From the NCBI RefSeq assembly GCF_000735135.1, contig NZ_JPLZ01000002.1, positions 1-64,000 of the forward strand: DNA of 64,000 bases. Direction: 5' to 3'. Made by a program: the position numbers and the translations under genes. The stretch is from Chryseobacterium sp. FH1. GTDB lineage: Bacteria > Bacteroidota > Bacteroidia > Flavobacteriales > Weeksellaceae. The stretch's first letter is position 1. The number at the start of each line of letters is the position of its first letter. Shown one piece after another: positions 3,683 through 10,204 of the stretch. Under the pieces are notes generated by a model, which was given only the letters and a program-made list of their open reading frames with translations, was not told the origin of the DNA and did not search any database.

Positions 3683-3716
3683 CTACATTATATATCACGT
3701 TAAATTTTTTCAAAGG

Positions 3717-3748
3717 AAACTCCTAATGCAATTTGGGAGTTTTTTATT
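3717..3748 (+). terminator. Rho-independent terminator of the beta-barrel gene
   Basis: AAACTCC pairs with GGAGTTT around an 11-12 base loop, followed by TTTATTTTTT. The T-tract runs into the 3' end of the convergent minus-strand gene. Confidence 0.7.
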
Positions 3749-4765
3749 TTTTCTGATTTCGCCAAATGAAGCCATCCAGCAAATAATGCGTCAATTGAGG
3801 CACGACCAAAAGCGGAACCAGAAACTGTTGCCAAGATATGGAAACTTCGAAGTTTTGAATTGAAAAATGTTCGCGCCAAACCAAGATTTCCCACATCAAT
3901 TCTTCGAAAAAAGCAAAGCCCAGAAGAATCAAAACAAACAAGAAAATCCCAAAGCTGGTTTTAAAAATAGAAAGTTTTTTTAAGCTTAAATTATCTTTCT
4001 GCTCAATTTCACGAATGTAGATCAAAGCGATGTACGGAATGCCGTGAGAAATGACATTAAGCAAGGTGAAAATCAAATCATTATTAAAATAGACAATCCC
4101 GAAATACCAAGACAGATAAGTTCCAACAATGATAGTATTTTTCGGAATGTTAAATGATTTTTCATTAATGAAAAAATAAATGGTTTTCAAAATCCAAATC
4201 GCAAGAATCACAAAATAAATCACCGTAATCGCAGGCACATAATTGGGAATCGAGCTCGTCCAACTGAACTCATTTTCCACAAACCAATTGAACGCTCTGG
4301 GCGTCTTAATCCAATAAAGCATCGGAAAAATCGTGGCGGAATAAATCGCTAAGCCGTCCCAAAATTTTGAAAAACCTTTTTTCTCAAATCTAGCGTAAAG
4401 CCTCATAAAACCATATTGCTGACGCACAAAATGAAACACTGCGACCAACGCCAAACCTGACCAGAAAAACAAACTCCCAAGCTGATAGAAAATCAAACCG
4501 AGAATCAAACTGATTGCCGGAATTCCCAAATACAAAAGTTTCCTTTTATGGAATTCGTCCTTAATGAAATAAGTTTTGAATAATGTTGAGTAAACGTGCG
4601 CCACATCCACGAAAACGATGAGAATCAACCAAGTGTAGAACGAGTAATGATTTTCCAGATTTTGAATCTGACTTTGAAACAAATCACCACCGCCAACACC
4701 AAAAATGGCGGAGACAAGATGAAACGCCAATCCGTTTTCGCATTGTGAATCCAAGGCTGTCTCAT
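3744..4765 (-). pseudogene. Frameshifted polytopic membrane protein, last gene of the polyamine operon
   Basis: The long frame starts at 4754, but that start is probably wrong. In another frame an ATG at 4765 overlaps the upstream stop as ATGA, like other junctions in this operon, and encodes MRQPWIHNAKTDWRFILSPP, a convincing start running into a membrane helix. One extra T in the TTT at 4681-4683 (AAA on the plus strand) would join the two frames as ...FLVLAVVI-LFQSQIQNLE... into about 340 residues. The remainder has about eight membrane helices and several histidines in or near them (DVAHVYSTLFK, FHFVRQQYG, ISHGIPYIA, THYLLDGFIWRN). I do not recognise the family. The frameshift may be a sequencing error, a real inactivation or a recoding site. 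If real, only a protein from an internal start would be made. Confidence 0.72.
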
Positions 4766-6363
4766 CGTTTTAGCATTTCTTTTACCGCATTGATGCCTTG
4801 ATGAAAAGCCTCTTCGAAAATGGAAATTCCTGATAAATCTGAGTGCGCAAAGAACACTTTCCCATCGATATTTTGTTTCGCCAAAGCTCTTTCCACTCCG
4901 AAAATAAAATCCGGAACCGGCGAAATCATCCCGTGACCCAACTTATGAAACTGAATATCAAGGATGAAATCTTCAATCTCGGGATGAGCGACTTTCAAAT
5001 CTGCAAGAACCAGTTTTTTCAAATCTTCATCTTTCTGATAGTATAACTTTTTTCGTGCTTTTTTGCAGTCGTCGGTAGAAAAACTTCGGTAATAGGTGAT
5101 GACTTTTTTGCCCATATTTTGATTGAGGTTTTGATGTTGGTCATTGATGTAACCCAAACCTTCCGTTCCAAAAATCACGTTGTCCCAAGCCAATTCTTCT
5201 CCTCCACCAAATTCATTTTTCAATGTTAAAGTCGCCAATAGCCAAGGCACATAATTGAAATTCTTCAGTTTTCTGTCTTTGAAAATATGTTGATTCACGA
5301 ATTGTGGCGTTGCAAAAAGCACTTTTTCGGCAATAATTTCTTTAGAGATTTTAGTTTGATTATCAAAAACCAAAACCTCCACATTTTCCGCATTCCAAGA
5401 GACATCATAAACCAAATGTTGTGATAGATTTTTGCCTTCCACAAACTTCGAAAGATGCTTCGCTAATCGCGCATTTCCTTCTGGCCAAGTGAAAACCTGG
5501 TCGTGGCGGTTGGTCGCCCAATTGTTTTTTCGTCCGGCGAAATAATGGATTCCCGCCCACGCAGAAACGTATTTCATTCCCAAACCATAGTCGTCTTTGC
5601 AGGAATAATCCATTAGCCAAAGCAATTCTTCGGATTCAAAATGGTTGGATTGAAGCCAGCTTTCAAACGTGATTTTATCAAGATTTTTTGCTTCAGTTTC
5701 TTGGCTGGATTTGTCCAATGGAATATCAAACCAATACTTTCCAGACGCATCTTTTCTGGTTCGGAATTCGTCCATTAATTTGAAAAAACGCTCGAATTCT
5801 TTTTTAGTTTTTAGTGAAATTCCATTTTGTGGTGTGAGGTCATTTTGCCATTCATTTTTGAAGAAAAGTCGCTCTTCTTTTGGGAACGTGAGTTGCTCGA
5901 CATCGAAGGTTGGCAATCCATTTTCGTCATCGCCGAGGTAGATTTTGCATTCCTTCAAAAACTCAATCAACTCCAAATCTTCTTTGTTGGGAATCGGCAG
6001 ATAATGGGCGCCGAGCGGGAATTTTGAGAATTTGTTTTCGCCGTTGGAAGCATTTCCTCCCAAATGATTTTCCATCTCGACCAGAAGAAAATCCGTTTCG
6101 TTGTTCTTGGTCAAATGTCTGCAAGCGGATAGTCCGGAGATTCCGCTTCCGACAATCAGGAATTTGACTTTAATTTCTTCCGTAGATTTAGGAAAATCCT
6201 TTGCCCAAAGTTGATGTCCCAAAACATAATTGGTTCCTGTAATCTTCAATAAAATCGATTTTGATTTTTGCTTGCAATACTGCAGAAAAGGCAACATCGC
6301 GCCAGCCCACAACATTGTCGTAAGAAAAGATTTTCGCGAAATTTGGTTTGGGCTTTGAGACAA
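4762..6363 (-). CDS. FAD/NAD(P)-binding amine-oxidase-like oxidoreductase
   Basis: 533 residues. A Rossmann motif VGSGISGLSA (G72, G74, G77) is followed by an acidic E96 and LGGNA, the dinucleotide-binding start of flavin amine oxidases and desaturases. The C-terminus has the matching FAD segment (FAHSDLSGISIFEEAFHQGI). A short leader precedes the Rossmann fold: SRKSFLTTMLWAGAMLPF resembles a Tat or membrane-anchor signal, though RK replaces RR and the lipobox is poor. It lies 15 bases downstream of the spermidine-synthase-like gene and overlaps the next gene by ATGA. That context suggests a polyamine or related amine as substrate, but this is inference; protoporphyrinogen- or carotenoid-type oxidoreductases share the fold. 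Confidence 0.8.
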   Translation of the reverse strand: MSQSPNQISRKSFLTTMLWAGAMLPFLQYCKQKSKSILLKITGTNYVLGHQLWAKDFPKSTEEIKVKFLIVGSGISGLSACRHLTKNNETDFLLVEMENHLGGNASNGENKFSKFPLGAHYLPIPNKEDLELIEFLKECKIYLGDDENGLPTFDVEQLTFPKEERLFFKNEWQNDLTPQNGISLKTKKEFERFFKLMDEFRTRKDASGKYWFDIPLDKSSQETEAKNLDKITFESWLQSNHFESEELLWLMDYSCKDDYGLGMKYVSAWAGIHYFAGRKNNWATNRHDQVFTWPEGNARLAKHLSKFVEGKNLSQHLVYDVSWNAENVEVLVFDNQTKISKEIIAEKVLFATPQFVNQHIFKDRKLKNFNYVPWLLATLTLKNEFGGGEELAWDNVIFGTEGLGYINDQHQNLNQNMGKKVITYYRSFSTDDCKKARKKLYYQKDEDLKKLVLADLKVAHPEIEDFILDIQFHKLGHGMISPVPDFIFGVERALAKQNIDGKVFFAHSDLSGISIFEEAFHQGINAVKEMLKR

Positions 6364-6378
6364 TTTTAAGGATTTAAA

Positions 6379-7893
6379 TTACTGAATTTTGCCCCATTCT
6401 TCATCAAAATATCGAACTAAAATCTGATTATCCAAACGATTAACTTCCGGATTTTCAGCCTTCATATCTTTGCTGAAGTAGGACATTTGCTTAAAATTAT
6501 AATCATAAAATTTCAAATCAGGAATTTTTCTAACGATTTTATTATCAATCGGTTGGAACGATGCGAAACAAAATCCCCATTCTCCAAAACTCGGAACATA
6601 AGTGTGATAAGCCGTTGTGAAAGGGAAAATTTGATTGATGGTTTTCTCGATGCACCAAAAAGATTTCGGCGCGAAATAAGGCGAAGTTGTTTGCACTACG
6701 ATTTTGGTATCCGGCGTGGTGACTTTCTCCAATTCATTGTAAAACTGAACCGAATATAATTTCCCCAAACTGTAATTGGAAGGGTCCGGAAAATCGATGA
6801 TGATGACGTCGTACTTCTTCTTGTTTTCCTTAATCCAAATGTACGCGTCCTTGTTGACGATTTGTAATTTCGGATTGGAAAGTGCGCTGTGATTCAATTT
6901 TTTCATTGTTTCGTTGTCTTTGAAAAAATTGGTCATCTGCCCGTCCAAATCTACGAGTGTGATATTCTTAACGTCTTTATATTTTAAAACTTCTCTCACC
7001 GCAAAACCGTCGCCTCCGCCCAAAATCAAAACGTTGGAAATATTCTTGGCCATTGACATTGCTGGATGAACCAATGCCTCGTGATAACGGTATTCGTCGG
7101 CGGAAGAGAACTGCAGATTGTTGTTAAGATAAAGCCTGAAATCCTTGTCGTTCCGCGTCAAAACGATTCTTTGATATGGAGAATTGTTTGCGTAAACAAT
7201 ATTTTCACCGTACAATTTCTCTTCAGAAAACGCCAAGAGTTTATCAGAAAAAATGAATAAAGCGACCAATCCTAAAAAGGCGACAATGGATTTGGCCTTC
7301 AAAGCGATTGGATTTTTCAGTTCTTTTTCCAGATAGAATGAAAGGAAAATGGCAATTGAAATATTAATCAAACCAAAAAAAAGTGGCGTTTTGATAATCC
7401 CCAAACTTGGAATCAAAACCAATGGAAAAAGGATTGATGCTAATAAAGCACCAATATAATCAAAGGCAAAAACGTTGGAAACCAAATCCTTGAAAGCAAC
7501 TTTATCCTTCAAGATATTCATCAGCAATGGAATTTCCAATCCGACCAAACATCCCGTGACGAAAACGAAAAGGTACAAAACCGGCTCAAAATGCTGAATT
7601 GTATTAAACAAAAAGAACAAAACCACAGAACTAATTCCGCCAATCACGCCAACGAGAATCTCAATCTCAACAAATTTGTTCAACAAATCCTTGTGAATAA
7701 ACTTGGCAAAATACGACCCAACGCCCATCGAAAATAGGTAAACGCCGATGATGAAAGAAAACTGCTTGACAGAATCTCCCAAAAGATAACTCGCCAAAGC
7801 GCCTGCAACCAACTCATAAATCAGTCCGCAAGTCGCAATGACGAACACCGAAAAAAGCAGAAGCAATTCAAAAGAAATGCGTTTTTTATCCAT
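6379..7893 (-). CDS. Membrane-anchored spermidine synthase-like aminopropyltransferase
   Basis: 504 residues in two parts. About seven membrane helices span residues 8-215. A soluble spermidine-synthase fold (about 225-480) carries YQRIVL (240-245), the substrate segment around DEYRYHEALVHP (266-277), the SAM-type loop GGGDG (292-296), an acidic VDLD (314-317) and IIDFPDP (365-371), where the family's catalytic aspartate lies. Known members transfer aminopropyl from decarboxylated SAM to putrescine or related amines; the matching decarboxylase is encoded at the head of this operon. The start overlaps the DUF350 gene by 8 bases. Membrane-fused members are common beside DUF350 and their true product is uncertain, so no speE symbol is given. 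Confidence 0.87.
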   Translation of the reverse strand: MDKKRISFELLLLFSVFVIATCGLIYELVAGALASYLLGDSVKQFSFIIGVYLFSMGVGSYFAKFIHKDLLNKFVEIEILVGVIGGISSVVLFFLFNTIQHFEPVLYLFVFVTGCLVGLEIPLLMNILKDKVAFKDLVSNVFAFDYIGALLASILFPLVLIPSLGIIKTPLFFGLINISIAIFLSFYLEKELKNPIALKAKSIVAFLGLVALFIFSDKLLAFSEEKLYGENIVYANNSPYQRIVLTRNDKDFRLYLNNNLQFSSADEYRYHEALVHPAMSMAKNISNVLILGGGDGFAVREVLKYKDVKNITLVDLDGQMTNFFKDNETMKKLNHSALSNPKLQIVNKDAYIWIKENKKKYDVIIIDFPDPSNYSLGKLYSVQFYNELEKVTTPDTKIVVQTTSPYFAPKSFWCIEKTINQIFPFTTAYHTYVPSFGEWGFCFASFQPIDNKIVRKIPDLKFYDYNFKQMSYFSKDMKAENPEVNRLDNQILVRYFDEEWGKIQ

Positions 7894-8101
7894 GAATCGC
7901 TCCGCTGATAATGATGGAAATCCCGATGATAAACGCGCCCAGGATAATTGCCAAAGCGGTATTGTTGTTTTTTGAAATCTCGTGCCACGTTTTTTCCGGC
8001 GTCAATTTCTCGATGATGAGGTAGCAAACCAAAAGAATGGCGACTCCCAAAAAAGCGTATAATATTGAATTGACTATCGGTAAATAATTAAATTCTCCCA
8101 T
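7886..8101 (-). CDS. DUF350 small membrane protein
   Basis: 71 residues with two membrane helices (about 9-30 and 47-68) joined by a short polar linker, EKLTPEKTWHEISKNNN. The second helix reads ALAIILGAFIIGISIIISGA, the glycine-rich pattern of DUF350 proteins. Members are normally 60-140 residues, so this is a full single-unit version. The function is unknown. It sits between the 64-residue membrane protein (24-base gap) and the spermidine-synthase-like gene (8-base overlap). DUF350 genes commonly neighbour DUF4178 and aminopropyltransferase genes in other bacteria, suggesting a joint membrane role. Confidence 0.87.
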   Translation of the reverse strand: MGEFNYLPIVNSILYAFLGVAILLVCYLIIEKLTPEKTWHEISKNNNTALAIILGAFIIGISIIISGAIHG

Positions 8102-8125
8102 TGTTTTTTATTTTTTTAATCAAAG

Positions 8126-8320
8126 TTATTTGTGATAATATCTGTAAACGGACGTTCCGTGTGAGCGATATCTCGAGGTTCCGTCCCTGTATTTTTCGGT
8201 CTTTGCGCAATCGCAGAACTGATTTCCCGTGTAGGTCAAATAGAGAAACCAACCAAGAAAAAACACGCCTGCGAAGACTACAAGTTTATATTTCTTGATG
8301 TAATTAATGATTTTTTCCAT
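8126..8320 (-). CDS. Small single-span membrane protein of the polyamine operon
   Basis: 64 residues: a Lys-rich start, one membrane helix (about 13-31), then an outward tail with CDC at 37-39 and many Arg/Tyr/His residues, ending TSVYRYYHK. I do not recognise a family. The start codon shares one base with the stop of the DUF4178 gene (TGATG), so translation is probably coupled, which supports a real gene despite its size. The Cys pair and charged tail could bind metal or a partner, but that is speculation. Confidence 0.72.
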   Translation of the reverse strand: MEKIINYIKKYKLVVFAGVFFLGWFLYLTYTGNQFCDCAKTEKYRDGTSRYRSHGTSVYRYYHK

Positions 8321-9759
8321 CAGCTTGTGTAATCGTTAAAAGGTGAATAGTTGCTGTTCTCCCATTTGGTCTTATCAAAAAGATATTTTCCCCAATAATT
8401 GAGTCCAACAAGTAAGGTCATAATTCCAAGAATGATAAAGTAATTCCAGAAACTGACCGGTTTCCAAAACGCCTGAATGGCGAAATTGGGATTGGCAGAA
8501 TCCGTGTCTGGAATGTTTGTCGAGAAATTTGGATTTTTCAGTTTGAAAGCCTTCGCCTGTTCCAATTCTGCGTAGGTTGTTGAATCATTTTGTTGAAGAT
8601 TTTCGAGATTCACCGCTGTTTTTTCTCCCGATGGCAGGATGACATCTACAAAGCCATCGCCTGTGTAAGCAAACGTCTTTTTGCCATCTGGCGCATAGAA
8701 TGTTTCTCCCGCTGGTTGTTCAAAGCCTTGTTTTTGGGCGCTGATTGAAAAGTGATATTTTCCGGGCGCAACACCACAGAAATTGAATTCTTTTTCCTTA
8801 CCACCTTCCGACCAGCTTTCGCCACTTTCGTAGCCGTGGTATTGTTCGATGTCTTGGGATGTGCATTCGATTTCGTTGGAATTTTCATTAATCAAACTCA
8901 ACTCTATATTCGCCCAAGAATTATCGACGTTGGAAGACAATTTGACATTAAGCGGAGCCGACGCGCCACTCAAATCAAATGATTTGGAAATCAATTCCTT
9001 ACTTCGGACAGAATCAAATCTAATATTATCGCTGAAAACCTCATAATTGCTTCTGGAAACCGTGTTATAAAACTGAAACAGACTCATTATCAACGCCACA
9101 ACGACGAAGACATTCAATAGCTGTCTTGAATTCACATAATAAGGCTGAACAATACCAATCCCCGAATAATTGGGCAGAGACGACAGCTTGAACGCTTTCT
9201 TGACTTCACTTTTCGGAACGTGTTTTCCCCAGAGAAAAGTTTTTTCTGTTCCAACCTGTTCCATAGAAACCATCTCGGTTCCGTTGACAAACTCCTTGTA
9301 AGTCGCTAAGCTGAACTTCAGTTTATCTTCGAAGAAACCCGTTGCCGAGTCAATGTTATTGGGTGTGGATTCGTACCAGCGGTATTTTTTGCCTTCAAAC
9401 TCTGCGTGGAATTTGAATTCTTTGTTAGGCATTGCCTTTGGAAACATTATCACCCAATGACCGTTGCTCTCGCTGAGGAATGCTTCGTTGAGATTTTTAT
9501 CTCTTAGGTGATACTCGCGCCAGAAAACAGAATTTCCATATTTCTTAACCACAATGGCAACCACTGTATATTCTGTTCCGTCTAATTTCCCTTTTTGACC
9601 AACTTCCAAAACCACATTCTCAGTTGGTTTTCTGACATTTTTGATGATTTTCCCTTGCTCGCTCAACATCGAGCAAGACTTACAGATGTAGCTCTCAACA
9701 GTGAAATCGAGGTCTAAGGTATTTTCTTTTTTGCAACTTGGACAGGTGTAAATCATCAT
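8320..9759 (-). CDS. DUF4178 zinc-ribbon membrane protein
   Basis: 479 residues from the start at 9759. A longer frame is open to 9912, but its first 51 codons lie over speD in another frame; the ATG at 9759 forms an ATGA overlap with the speD stop and is preferred. The N-terminus is a zinc ribbon (Cys6, 9, 26, 29). A DUF4178 domain follows (about 53-150, with YTVVAIVVKKYGNSVFWREY), then a second soluble part, one membrane helix (about 214-232), an extracytoplasmic domain of about 200 residues and a second helix (about 437-456). Function is unknown. The family often sits beside DUF350, SpeD and spermidine synthase genes, as here. Confidence 0.84.
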   Translation of the reverse strand: MMIYTCPSCKKENTLDLDFTVESYICKSCSMLSEQGKIIKNVRKPTENVVLEVGQKGKLDGTEYTVVAIVVKKYGNSVFWREYHLRDKNLNEAFLSESNGHWVIMFPKAMPNKEFKFHAEFEGKKYRWYESTPNNIDSATGFFEDKLKFSLATYKEFVNGTEMVSMEQVGTEKTFLWGKHVPKSEVKKAFKLSSLPNYSGIGIVQPYYVNSRQLLNVFVVVALIMSLFQFYNTVSRSNYEVFSDNIRFDSVRSKELISKSFDLSGASAPLNVKLSSNVDNSWANIELSLINENSNEIECTSQDIEQYHGYESGESWSEGGKEKEFNFCGVAPGKYHFSISAQKQGFEQPAGETFYAPDGKKTFAYTGDGFVDVILPSGEKTAVNLENLQQNDSTTYAELEQAKAFKLKNPNFSTNIPDTDSANPNFAIQAFWKPVSFWNYFIILGIMTLLVGLNYWGKYLFDKTKWENSNYSPFNDYTS

Positions 9760-10118
9760 CTTCGGATTTTGTGTTCTTTGATGATTTGTCCCGAGAAATA
9801 GTCGGTCACAGCCTTGGCAATCGTTTCGGTCTTGTGAGAATTGTCGCCGAAGTAATTGCACAACAAAATATCGAAAGTCAGTTGCGAAAATTCTGGCCAA
9901 GTATGGATGCACAAATGAGATTCTTTGAGAATGACAGCCGACGTGAAACTGCCGTTTGAGAAGATGTGATGCGTCTCACCAACCACTTCTGTTTCATTTT
10001 CCGATAAGATTTCCTTTACTCTTTTGATGAAAGAATCGTAGTCTAATAATAGATTCGCCTCGCTTACTTTTAACGTTAATAAGATGTGTAAACCTTCGCT
10101 ATAAGTTTCTAATTCCAT
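9756..10118 (-). CDS. speD: S-adenosylmethionine decarboxylase (pyruvoyl type)
   Basis: 120 residues, the normal size of small bacterial AdoMet decarboxylases that cleave themselves to create a pyruvoyl cofactor. The cleavage-site motif KESHLCIHTWPE is present: E66/S67 is the expected cut, H72 matches the processing histidine, and C87 in DILLCNYFGD matches the catalytic cysteine of the family. The enzyme should therefore be active and make decarboxylated SAM, the aminopropyl donor for the synthase-like gene four genes downstream. It is the first gene of the seven-gene operon; no clear promoter box was found in its 90-base upstream region. Confidence 0.9.
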   Translation of the reverse strand: MELETYSEGLHILLTLKVSEANLLLDYDSFIKRVKEILSENETEVVGETHHIFSNGSFTSAVILKESHLCIHTWPEFSQLTFDILLCNYFGDNSHKTETIAKAVTDYFSGQIIKEHKIRR

Positions 10119-10179
10119 TTGTGCTAAATAATGACAGCAATATCTTATTTTTTTGGAAGATTTACAATAGAAAAATAAA

Positions 10180-10204
10180 AAAGCTACAAAAATCTGTAGC
10201 TTTC
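10180..10204 (-). terminator. Rho-independent terminator after the CtlX-like gene
   Basis: On the minus strand AAAGCTACA and TGTAGCTTT form a 9-bp stem around a 6-base loop, followed by TTATTTTTC. It ends transcription from the gene at 10213-11130 and insulates the speD operon. Confidence 0.8.

Follow-up and report, generated by a model that had tools for sequence, protein, structure and literature searches.

What does a bacterium make when a decarboxylase of S-adenosylmethionine (SAM) and a membrane-fused relative of spermidine synthase are encoded together with a flavin enzyme and further membrane proteins? The question is posed by a seven-gene operon of Chryseobacterium sp. FH1 (genome of 3,975,884 bases in 12 contigs). 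Open reading frame (ORF) and profile analysis places the operon at 3744–10118, entirely on the minus strand, of the window analysed here, positions 1 to 64,000 of contig NZ_JPLZ01000002.1. Starting from speD, the genes encode SpeD, a DUF4178 protein, a small protein, a DUF350 protein, membrane-fused SpeE, a flavin amine-oxidase-like protein and a polytopic membrane protein (gene 7). We find that the flavin gene accompanies membrane SpeE widely, standing beside it in three phyla, and that the flavin gene and gene 7 are conserved members of the operon, not passengers. With a probability of about 0.5, we propose that the operon modifies the cell envelope, first aminopropylating a substrate at the membrane and then oxidising the product outside the cytoplasm.

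The genes are closely packed, with an ATGA junction after speD followed by a TGATG junction, a gap of 24 bp, an 8-bp overlap, a gap of 15 bp and a second ATGA. Each of these junctions matches the initial annotation, which had grouped the seven genes, and the gene order recurs across Bacteroidota beyond what chance would give.

Two surveys carry the main finding. In a sample of the phylum, 296 genomes were searched with genes 5, 6 and 7, and wherever a full-length membrane SpeE was encoded (22 genomes, the window included) its neighbourhood was examined. The flavin gene is present in 12 of the 296 genomes (again counting that of the window) and adjoins membrane SpeE in all 12. Close relatives of gene 7 occur in nine genomes, all of them inside flavin-positive operons, giving a nested series of 22 membrane SpeE, 12 flavin and 9 gene 7. 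The initial annotation had asked whether conserved neighbourhoods lack the last two genes, and here the outcome is mixed: 12 of the 22 genomes carry the flavin gene and 10 do not, eight of the latter being distant variants with other layouts and two being close operons.

The second survey, a scan of named genomes with the flavin-protein alignment, confirmed at least 577 relatives, of which 80 were kept, all from Bacteroidota judging by their record titles; locus counts below refer to these 80. The family gene directly before the flavin gene is SpeE at 80/80 loci, with gaps above 100 bp at two of them (472 and 693 bp). Of the same loci, 75/80 include gene 7 and 58/80 keep the plain order from gene 1 to gene 7. 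The five loci without gene 7 are L144, L147, L150, L161 and L163; at L161 the sequence stops ~1 kb beyond the flavin gene, which may have cut off its gene 7.

Beyond the phylum, the flavin protein was detected in seven plasmid records from two other phyla (Novosphingobium, three; Burkholderia, three; Gemmatirosa, one), with SpeE adjoining in 7/7. Membrane SpeE is also present at full length, with 35–42% identity, in five more plasmid records (Ensifer, two Tritonibacter and two Alteromonas), and these gave no flavin match. Gene 7 was not found in the five plasmid loci scanned, the only ones beyond the phylum where it was looked for. The earlier proposal that the flavin enzyme may act on the same product is supported and extended by this distribution across three phyla, together with the predicted export of the family by the twin-arginine translocation (Tat) route.

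Gene order varies between lineages. On the Novosphingobium plasmid the order is SPFH, DUF4178, DUF4178, small protein, DUF350, SpeE, flavin and SpeD, and at L085 and L177 SpeD follows the flavin gene instead of standing first. DUF4178 genes are tandem or repeated at L157, L158, L159, L166 and L172 (with DUF350 also repeated at L157), as in the Novosphingobium plasmid operon. In the copy at L147 (Sphingobacterium multivorum), both the DUF4178 gene and the SpeE gene are broken up into several ORFs, reflecting either operon decay or sequence errors.

How might these genes act together? In the envelope-modification pathway that we propose, SpeD would produce decarboxylated SAM, and the membrane-fused SpeE, judging from its family and catalytic residues, would move the aminopropyl group onto an amine acceptor at or in the inner membrane. 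The flavin enzyme, predicted from its N-terminus to be Tat-exported and probably lipid-anchored, would then oxidise the product outside the cytoplasm; that its substrate is an amine is suggested by the fold. Gene 7 encodes a putative intramembrane four-His protein, which may perform a third step or accept electrons from the flavin enzyme. The DUF4178, small and DUF350 proteins could serve as a membrane scaffold or regulator.

The speD gene (9756–10118) encodes a class 1b SAM decarboxylase (AdoMetDC) of 120 amino acids (aa), matched by PF02675 (AdoMet_dc) at 60.5 bits and by the Thermotoga maritima AdoMetDC in the PDB. Across the 77 aligned SpeD proteins of the kept loci, S67, H72 and P75 (the Pro of HTWPE) are present in 77/77. 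Where T. maritima AdoMetDC has its catalytic C83, 60 of these proteins have Cys, 16 have Ser and one has Tyr; the window has Cys (C87). SpeD of the window retains the processing Ser, the His and the Cys, as first annotated, although the NCBIfam equivalog score lies under its cut-off. We also considered arginine or ornithine decarboxylase activity: in the accessible text of PMC10407285, a conserved Pro separates true AdoMetDC from an arginine group, and four residues mark an ornithine group. We did not adopt this assignment; P75 in 77/77 favours AdoMetDC, short of proof.

A search of the whole genome found one SpeD gene, one SpeE-type gene and one place with DUF350. NspC gave no match in the genome (a control search detected it in 6/14 genomes, above cut-off in one). 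The genome also contains one deoxyhypusine-synthase-like gene. Bacterial proteins of this kind can be homospermidine synthases; an Anabaena case is named in a reference list.

Is the decarboxylated SAM simply converted to spermidine? Clusters of AdoMetDC, a membrane-fused spermidine synthase (SpdSyn) and DUF350 were reportedly described by Li et al. in 2019 (Biochem J 476:2579), who are also said to have counted thousands of AdoMetDC genes in genomes encoding membrane-fused spermidine-synthase-like proteins. The window operon resembles those clusters in its class 1b AdoMetDC with the processing Ser and His, its membrane domain fused to a SpdSyn-like domain and its DUF350 gene, and the content of the genome is likewise compatible with a role outside spermidine synthesis. 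It differs in adding a predicted exported flavin enzyme and a polytopic His protein, which the abstract of that study is not known to mention. PMC12803844, a paper of 2025, states with reference to Li et al. 2019 that bacterial membrane-aminopropyltransferase proteins of this kind have been shown to play no part in making spermidine or spermine.

That SpeD and SpeE make ordinary spermidine, beside unrelated neighbours, would fit the family names and the intact catalytic motifs, and no other SpeE and no NspC was found in the genome. What PMC12803844 states on bacterial homologues speaks against it, as does the flavin gene, which stands beside SpeE in every flavin-positive case examined. We regard this explanation as very unlikely and set it aside. 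The decarboxylated SAM probably serves a purpose at the membrane that is distinct from cellular spermidine, a point on which the initial annotation is supported both by the sole SpeD and SpeE-type genes of this genome and by what the accessible part of PMC12803844 reports for homologues.

The membrane-fused SpeE (6379–7893) carries seven hydrophobic segments (about residues 11–217), in agreement with the seven helices first annotated, followed by a SpeE aminopropyltransferase domain (about 228–504). It matches PF01564 (Spermine_synth) at 137.9 bits and NCBIfam PRK03612 at 640.2 bits. In an alignment of the window protein with 31 of 78 relatives (32 proteins), the aminopropyltransferase motifs GGGDG, D315, D317, D367, D370, Y270 and Q241 are invariant; their roles we take to be those of the corresponding residues in solved spermidine synthases. 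Mean column identity is higher in the membrane domain (0.75, residues 11–217) than in the enzyme domain (0.68, residues 228–504).

For topology, 18 proteins were added to this alignment (n = 50; L027 and L028 left out), with segment and loop borders set by hand. Four acidic residues of the membrane domain, E27, E78, E120 and D145, are present in 50/50. Lys and Arg average 9.46 in loops 2, 4 and 6 combined and 1.86 in loops 1, 3 and 5, and the even loops exceed the odd ones in 50/50 proteins; by the positive-inside rule, this charge pattern points to an N-in start. On the hydrophobicity scale used, segments 2 and 5 come out weakest (medians 1.61 and 1.22), but removing either would break the charge pattern. 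The seventh segment (about 202–217) is the second most hydrophobic, with a median of −0.45 against −0.89 for the first; among the 18 added proteins its values extend from −2.4 to 1.2. A seventh segment that spans the membrane would place the SpeE domain outside, and one lying along the membrane would place it inside.

Taken together, an N-in start, positive-inside loops in 50/50 proteins and a hydrophobic seventh segment would turn the SpeE domain towards the periplasm. Aminopropylation and then oxidation of the envelope would in that case both take place in situ, with the membrane domain, through E27, E78, E120 and D145, passing decarboxylated SAM, a dication, outward. We consider such a periplasmic catalytic domain rather unlikely. 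It cuts across the question of the product, being compatible both with envelope modification and with the synthesis of a free polyamine.

The second step of the proposed envelope modification depends on the flavin protein (4762–6363; 533 aa, TTG start), which begins with a Tat-type signal followed by Cys. It is 95% identical to its counterpart in Epilithonimonas lactis DSM 19921 (L094), so that the strain probably belongs to Epilithonimonas, and the family alignment comprised the window protein and 36 of 79 flavin proteins. The protein matches PF01593 (Amino_oxidase) at 39.4 bits, against a cut-off of 19.8, and NAD_binding_8 at 50.1 bits. The N-termini of the family carry R[RK]x[FL] in 78/80 proteins, with a Cys 14–30 residues further on in 77/80. 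The same combination occurs in only 2/578 control ORFs (at least 250 aa, same loci, both strands), some of which are perhaps not genes. In the window this motif takes the RK form (SRKSFL) and is followed by LQYC. The Novosphingobium and Gemmatirosa members read ..LLGGC and ..VGLSC and resemble regular Tat lipoproteins. Because of the twin-arginine-type signal and the Cys, the flavin enzyme should act outside the cytoplasm. The Tat-type export signal of this family is new in this analysis.

The AlphaFold2 model of the flavin protein has a mean predicted local distance difference test (pLDDT) score of 86.8, with low values in the signal region. Its top fold match is putrescine oxidase 2yg7 (Z 30.2, 416 residues aligned, root mean square deviation (rmsd) 3.2), and the best Foldseek match has an E-value of 8.4e-24. 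Monoamine oxidase (MAO; Z 29 to 30), renalase (28.7), protoporphyrinogen oxidase (28.4) and phytoene desaturase (28.0) follow, and spermidine dehydrogenase (SpdH) is matched at Z 26.5 (448 aligned, rmsd 4.5). Matches within 1 Z are tied, and the fold therefore leaves the substrate of the flavin enzyme unfixed. PigB, the best NCBIfam match for this gene, is weak (59.7 bits in one relative, against a cut-off of 850) and was not adopted.

These features bear on a second explanation, in which a free small polyamine, such as homospermidine with an added aminopropyl group or a triamine resembling norspermidine, is made, exported and coats the surface, with the flavin enzyme trimming it. A putrescine oxidase as closest fold, with SpdH among the matches, would suit such a substrate, and the deoxyhypusine-synthase-like gene, possibly a homospermidine synthase, could provide the acceptor. 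The accessible text of PMC11107197 sets out a comparable, hypothetical route for Pseudomonas aeruginosa, in which SpeE2 makes thermospermine and SpdH, exported by Tat, converts it by oxidation into norspermidine destined for the cell surface. Of the models that we found, this comes closest to an aminopropyltransferase acting ahead of an exported oxidase and is a precedent for the proposed envelope modification too, and it would share with the window operon both that pair of activities and a proposed surface polyamine. As far as that text goes, the two differ in that SpdH is not placed with speD2–speE2, SpeE2 is of a size expected for soluble enzymes, and no DUF350, DUF4178 or gene 7 is described. 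At the 349 aa given by the same source, SpeE2 is too short for a membrane domain such as the one found here. The invariant acidic residues of that domain suggest more than an anchor, yet they would fit export equally. Overall, a free polyamine is a possible but tentative alternative to envelope modification.

Gene 7 (3744–4765) has no Pfam or NCBIfam match and is recognised from its homologues. Translation from the ATG within the last ATGA (about 4765) matches the relatives over their first residues before the frame closes, and the remainder of the gene lies in another frame. The frameshift maps to 4681–4686, where the T run (4681–4683) is one base shorter than in E. lactis L094. Among 23 genomes of the same genus, eight have gene 7; seven of the proteins align from residue 1 and that of the window alone from residue 28. 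Either a sequencing error or a genuine lesion could account for the frameshift. The placement of gene 7 as the seventh gene consequently stands as regards its ATGA junction, and needs amending as regards its reading frame, which soon closes.

The model of the intact E. lactis protein has a mean pLDDT of 90.0 and a predicted TM-score of 0.88. Among 48 aligned sequences (of 73 length-filtered proteins), His 58, 113, 242 and 328 are invariant, each in a different helix predicted from the secondary structure of the model. The four His may form an intramembrane metal or heme site. Foldseek returned no solved relative at E 0.001, and the best VIA match (Z 6.8; rhodopsin, 169 residues, rmsd 5.0) has an ordinary score.

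Ten weak matches of 355–441 aa (L029–L038) share the four His and form a remote gene 7 family in other genomes of the phylum. A core gene is nearby in none of their ten sequence stretches, the six neighbourhoods listed offer no informative partner, and the four examples scanned have no Pfam family above cut-off.

Three genes of the operon remain. The DUF4178 protein (8320–9759; 479 aa, PF13785 at 41.3 bits) has N-terminal CxxC pairs, and at least two CxxC motifs fall within the first 60 residues in 76/79 length-filtered relatives. The small protein (8126–8320; 64 aa) comprises a hydrophobic stretch, a CDC motif and an HK C-terminus, with no Pfam or NCBIfam family above the curated cut-offs used for annotation throughout; its length-filtered relatives keep CDC in 58/62 and the C-terminal HK in 62/62. 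The DUF350 protein (7886–8101; PF03994 at 53.0 bits) is a short form of 71 aa. In the part of Ravi et al. 2024 (PMC11237479) that was accessible, seven-transmembrane (7TM)-SpeE, DUF350 and DUF4178 are placed in CesT/Tir-PspA operons. The three occur together here too. In contrast to those operons as described there, the window operon is without PspA, its DUF350 protein has 71 aa instead of the eight-transmembrane form, and the flavin gene and gene 7 are present instead. The same source describes a variant of the ATP-grasp/DUF350 operon that carries an AdoMet decarboxylase and a polyamine oxidase, with a glutathionylspermidine-synthetase-like ligase in such operons. The coupling of AdoMet decarboxylase, DUF350 and polyamine oxidase in that variant is similar to ours; the seven genes of the window differ from it, so far as it is described there, in having membrane SpeE and, by Pfam, no such ligase.

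A third possibility is that the polyamine enzymes feed a PspA/SPFH-type membrane-stress system and that their product is a signal or stabiliser, with no covalent modification of the envelope. In addition to the operons outlined in PMC11237479, the SPFH gene directly before the DUF4178 genes in Novosphingobium would agree with this. The operon itself is without PspA, however, and the sole PspA match of the genome (C2:258310–258987) lies ~250 kb away. Furthermore, no other gene recurs widely with the operon in Bacteroidota: apart from two clusters antisense to genes 5 and 6, the most widespread extra cluster of ORFs of at least 110 aa reaches six of the 21 distant loci, and these six are all Sphingobacteriaceae judging by their titles. 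A stress module of this kind seems unlikely.

Returning to envelope modification, several observations weigh against it. Two close operons (G289 and G257) end after membrane SpeE, and oxidation is thus not obligatory. SpeD of the window scores 59.8 bits in its best NCBIfam equivalog, below the cut-off of 75.65, and the catalytic Cys is replaced by Ser in 16/77 SpeD proteins. For the flavin enzyme, the members from Flavobacteriales, that of the window among them, have a loose lipobox (LQYC, LQFC); the sequence-profile matches in the PDB are strongest near the motif that binds flavin adenine dinucleotide (FAD); and MAO, renalase, protoporphyrinogen oxidase and phytoene desaturase fit the fold at close Z. 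Finally, gene 7 is frameshifted in the window.

How much of the operon has been described before? The initial annotation held that DUF350, DUF4178, SpeD and SpeE-like genes recur together, and the core has indeed appeared in print in parts. In the literature searched, DUF350 and DUF4178 were found together only in PMC11237479, subscription papers being mostly outside its scope. No description of the extension of the core by the flavin gene and gene 7 was found in the same literature; it is perhaps in print elsewhere, among the subscription papers that were mostly uncovered. The core (SpeD, DUF4178, DUF350 and membrane SpeE) is published in parts, and the extension by the flavin gene and gene 7 is a conserved variant of it.

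The flanks of the operon were scanned for regulatory signals. A terminator-like hairpin of 13 pairs, only three of them G-C, was found by a consensus scan directly 3′ of gene 7 (3714–3745, listed on the plus strand), and a second, by consensus match only, lies between the upstream gene and speD (10179–10204, minus strand). The region holds 12 terminator-like sites, against 5.7 (standard deviation 2.6) in shuffled sequence. The promoter scan of the region was uninformative, with 14 sites against 15.6 in shuffles. Upstream on the same strand are a DDAH-like gene (PF19420; 10213–11130) and an arginine-deiminase-like gene (PF02274; 11237–12274), both encoding guanidine-modifying enzymes. A counterpart of each is present at 21/80 operon loci and at 0/21 of the distant ones.

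In the literature searched, we found no substrate for membrane-fused spermidine-synthase-like proteins. The presence of an amine-oxidase-like enzyme with a predicted export signal beside membrane SpeE in three phyla hints at the side of the membrane on which the chemistry may continue. If the topology reading is true, the transfer of a SAM-derived group would take place outside the cytoplasm, and a SAM-derived cofactor would be used there.

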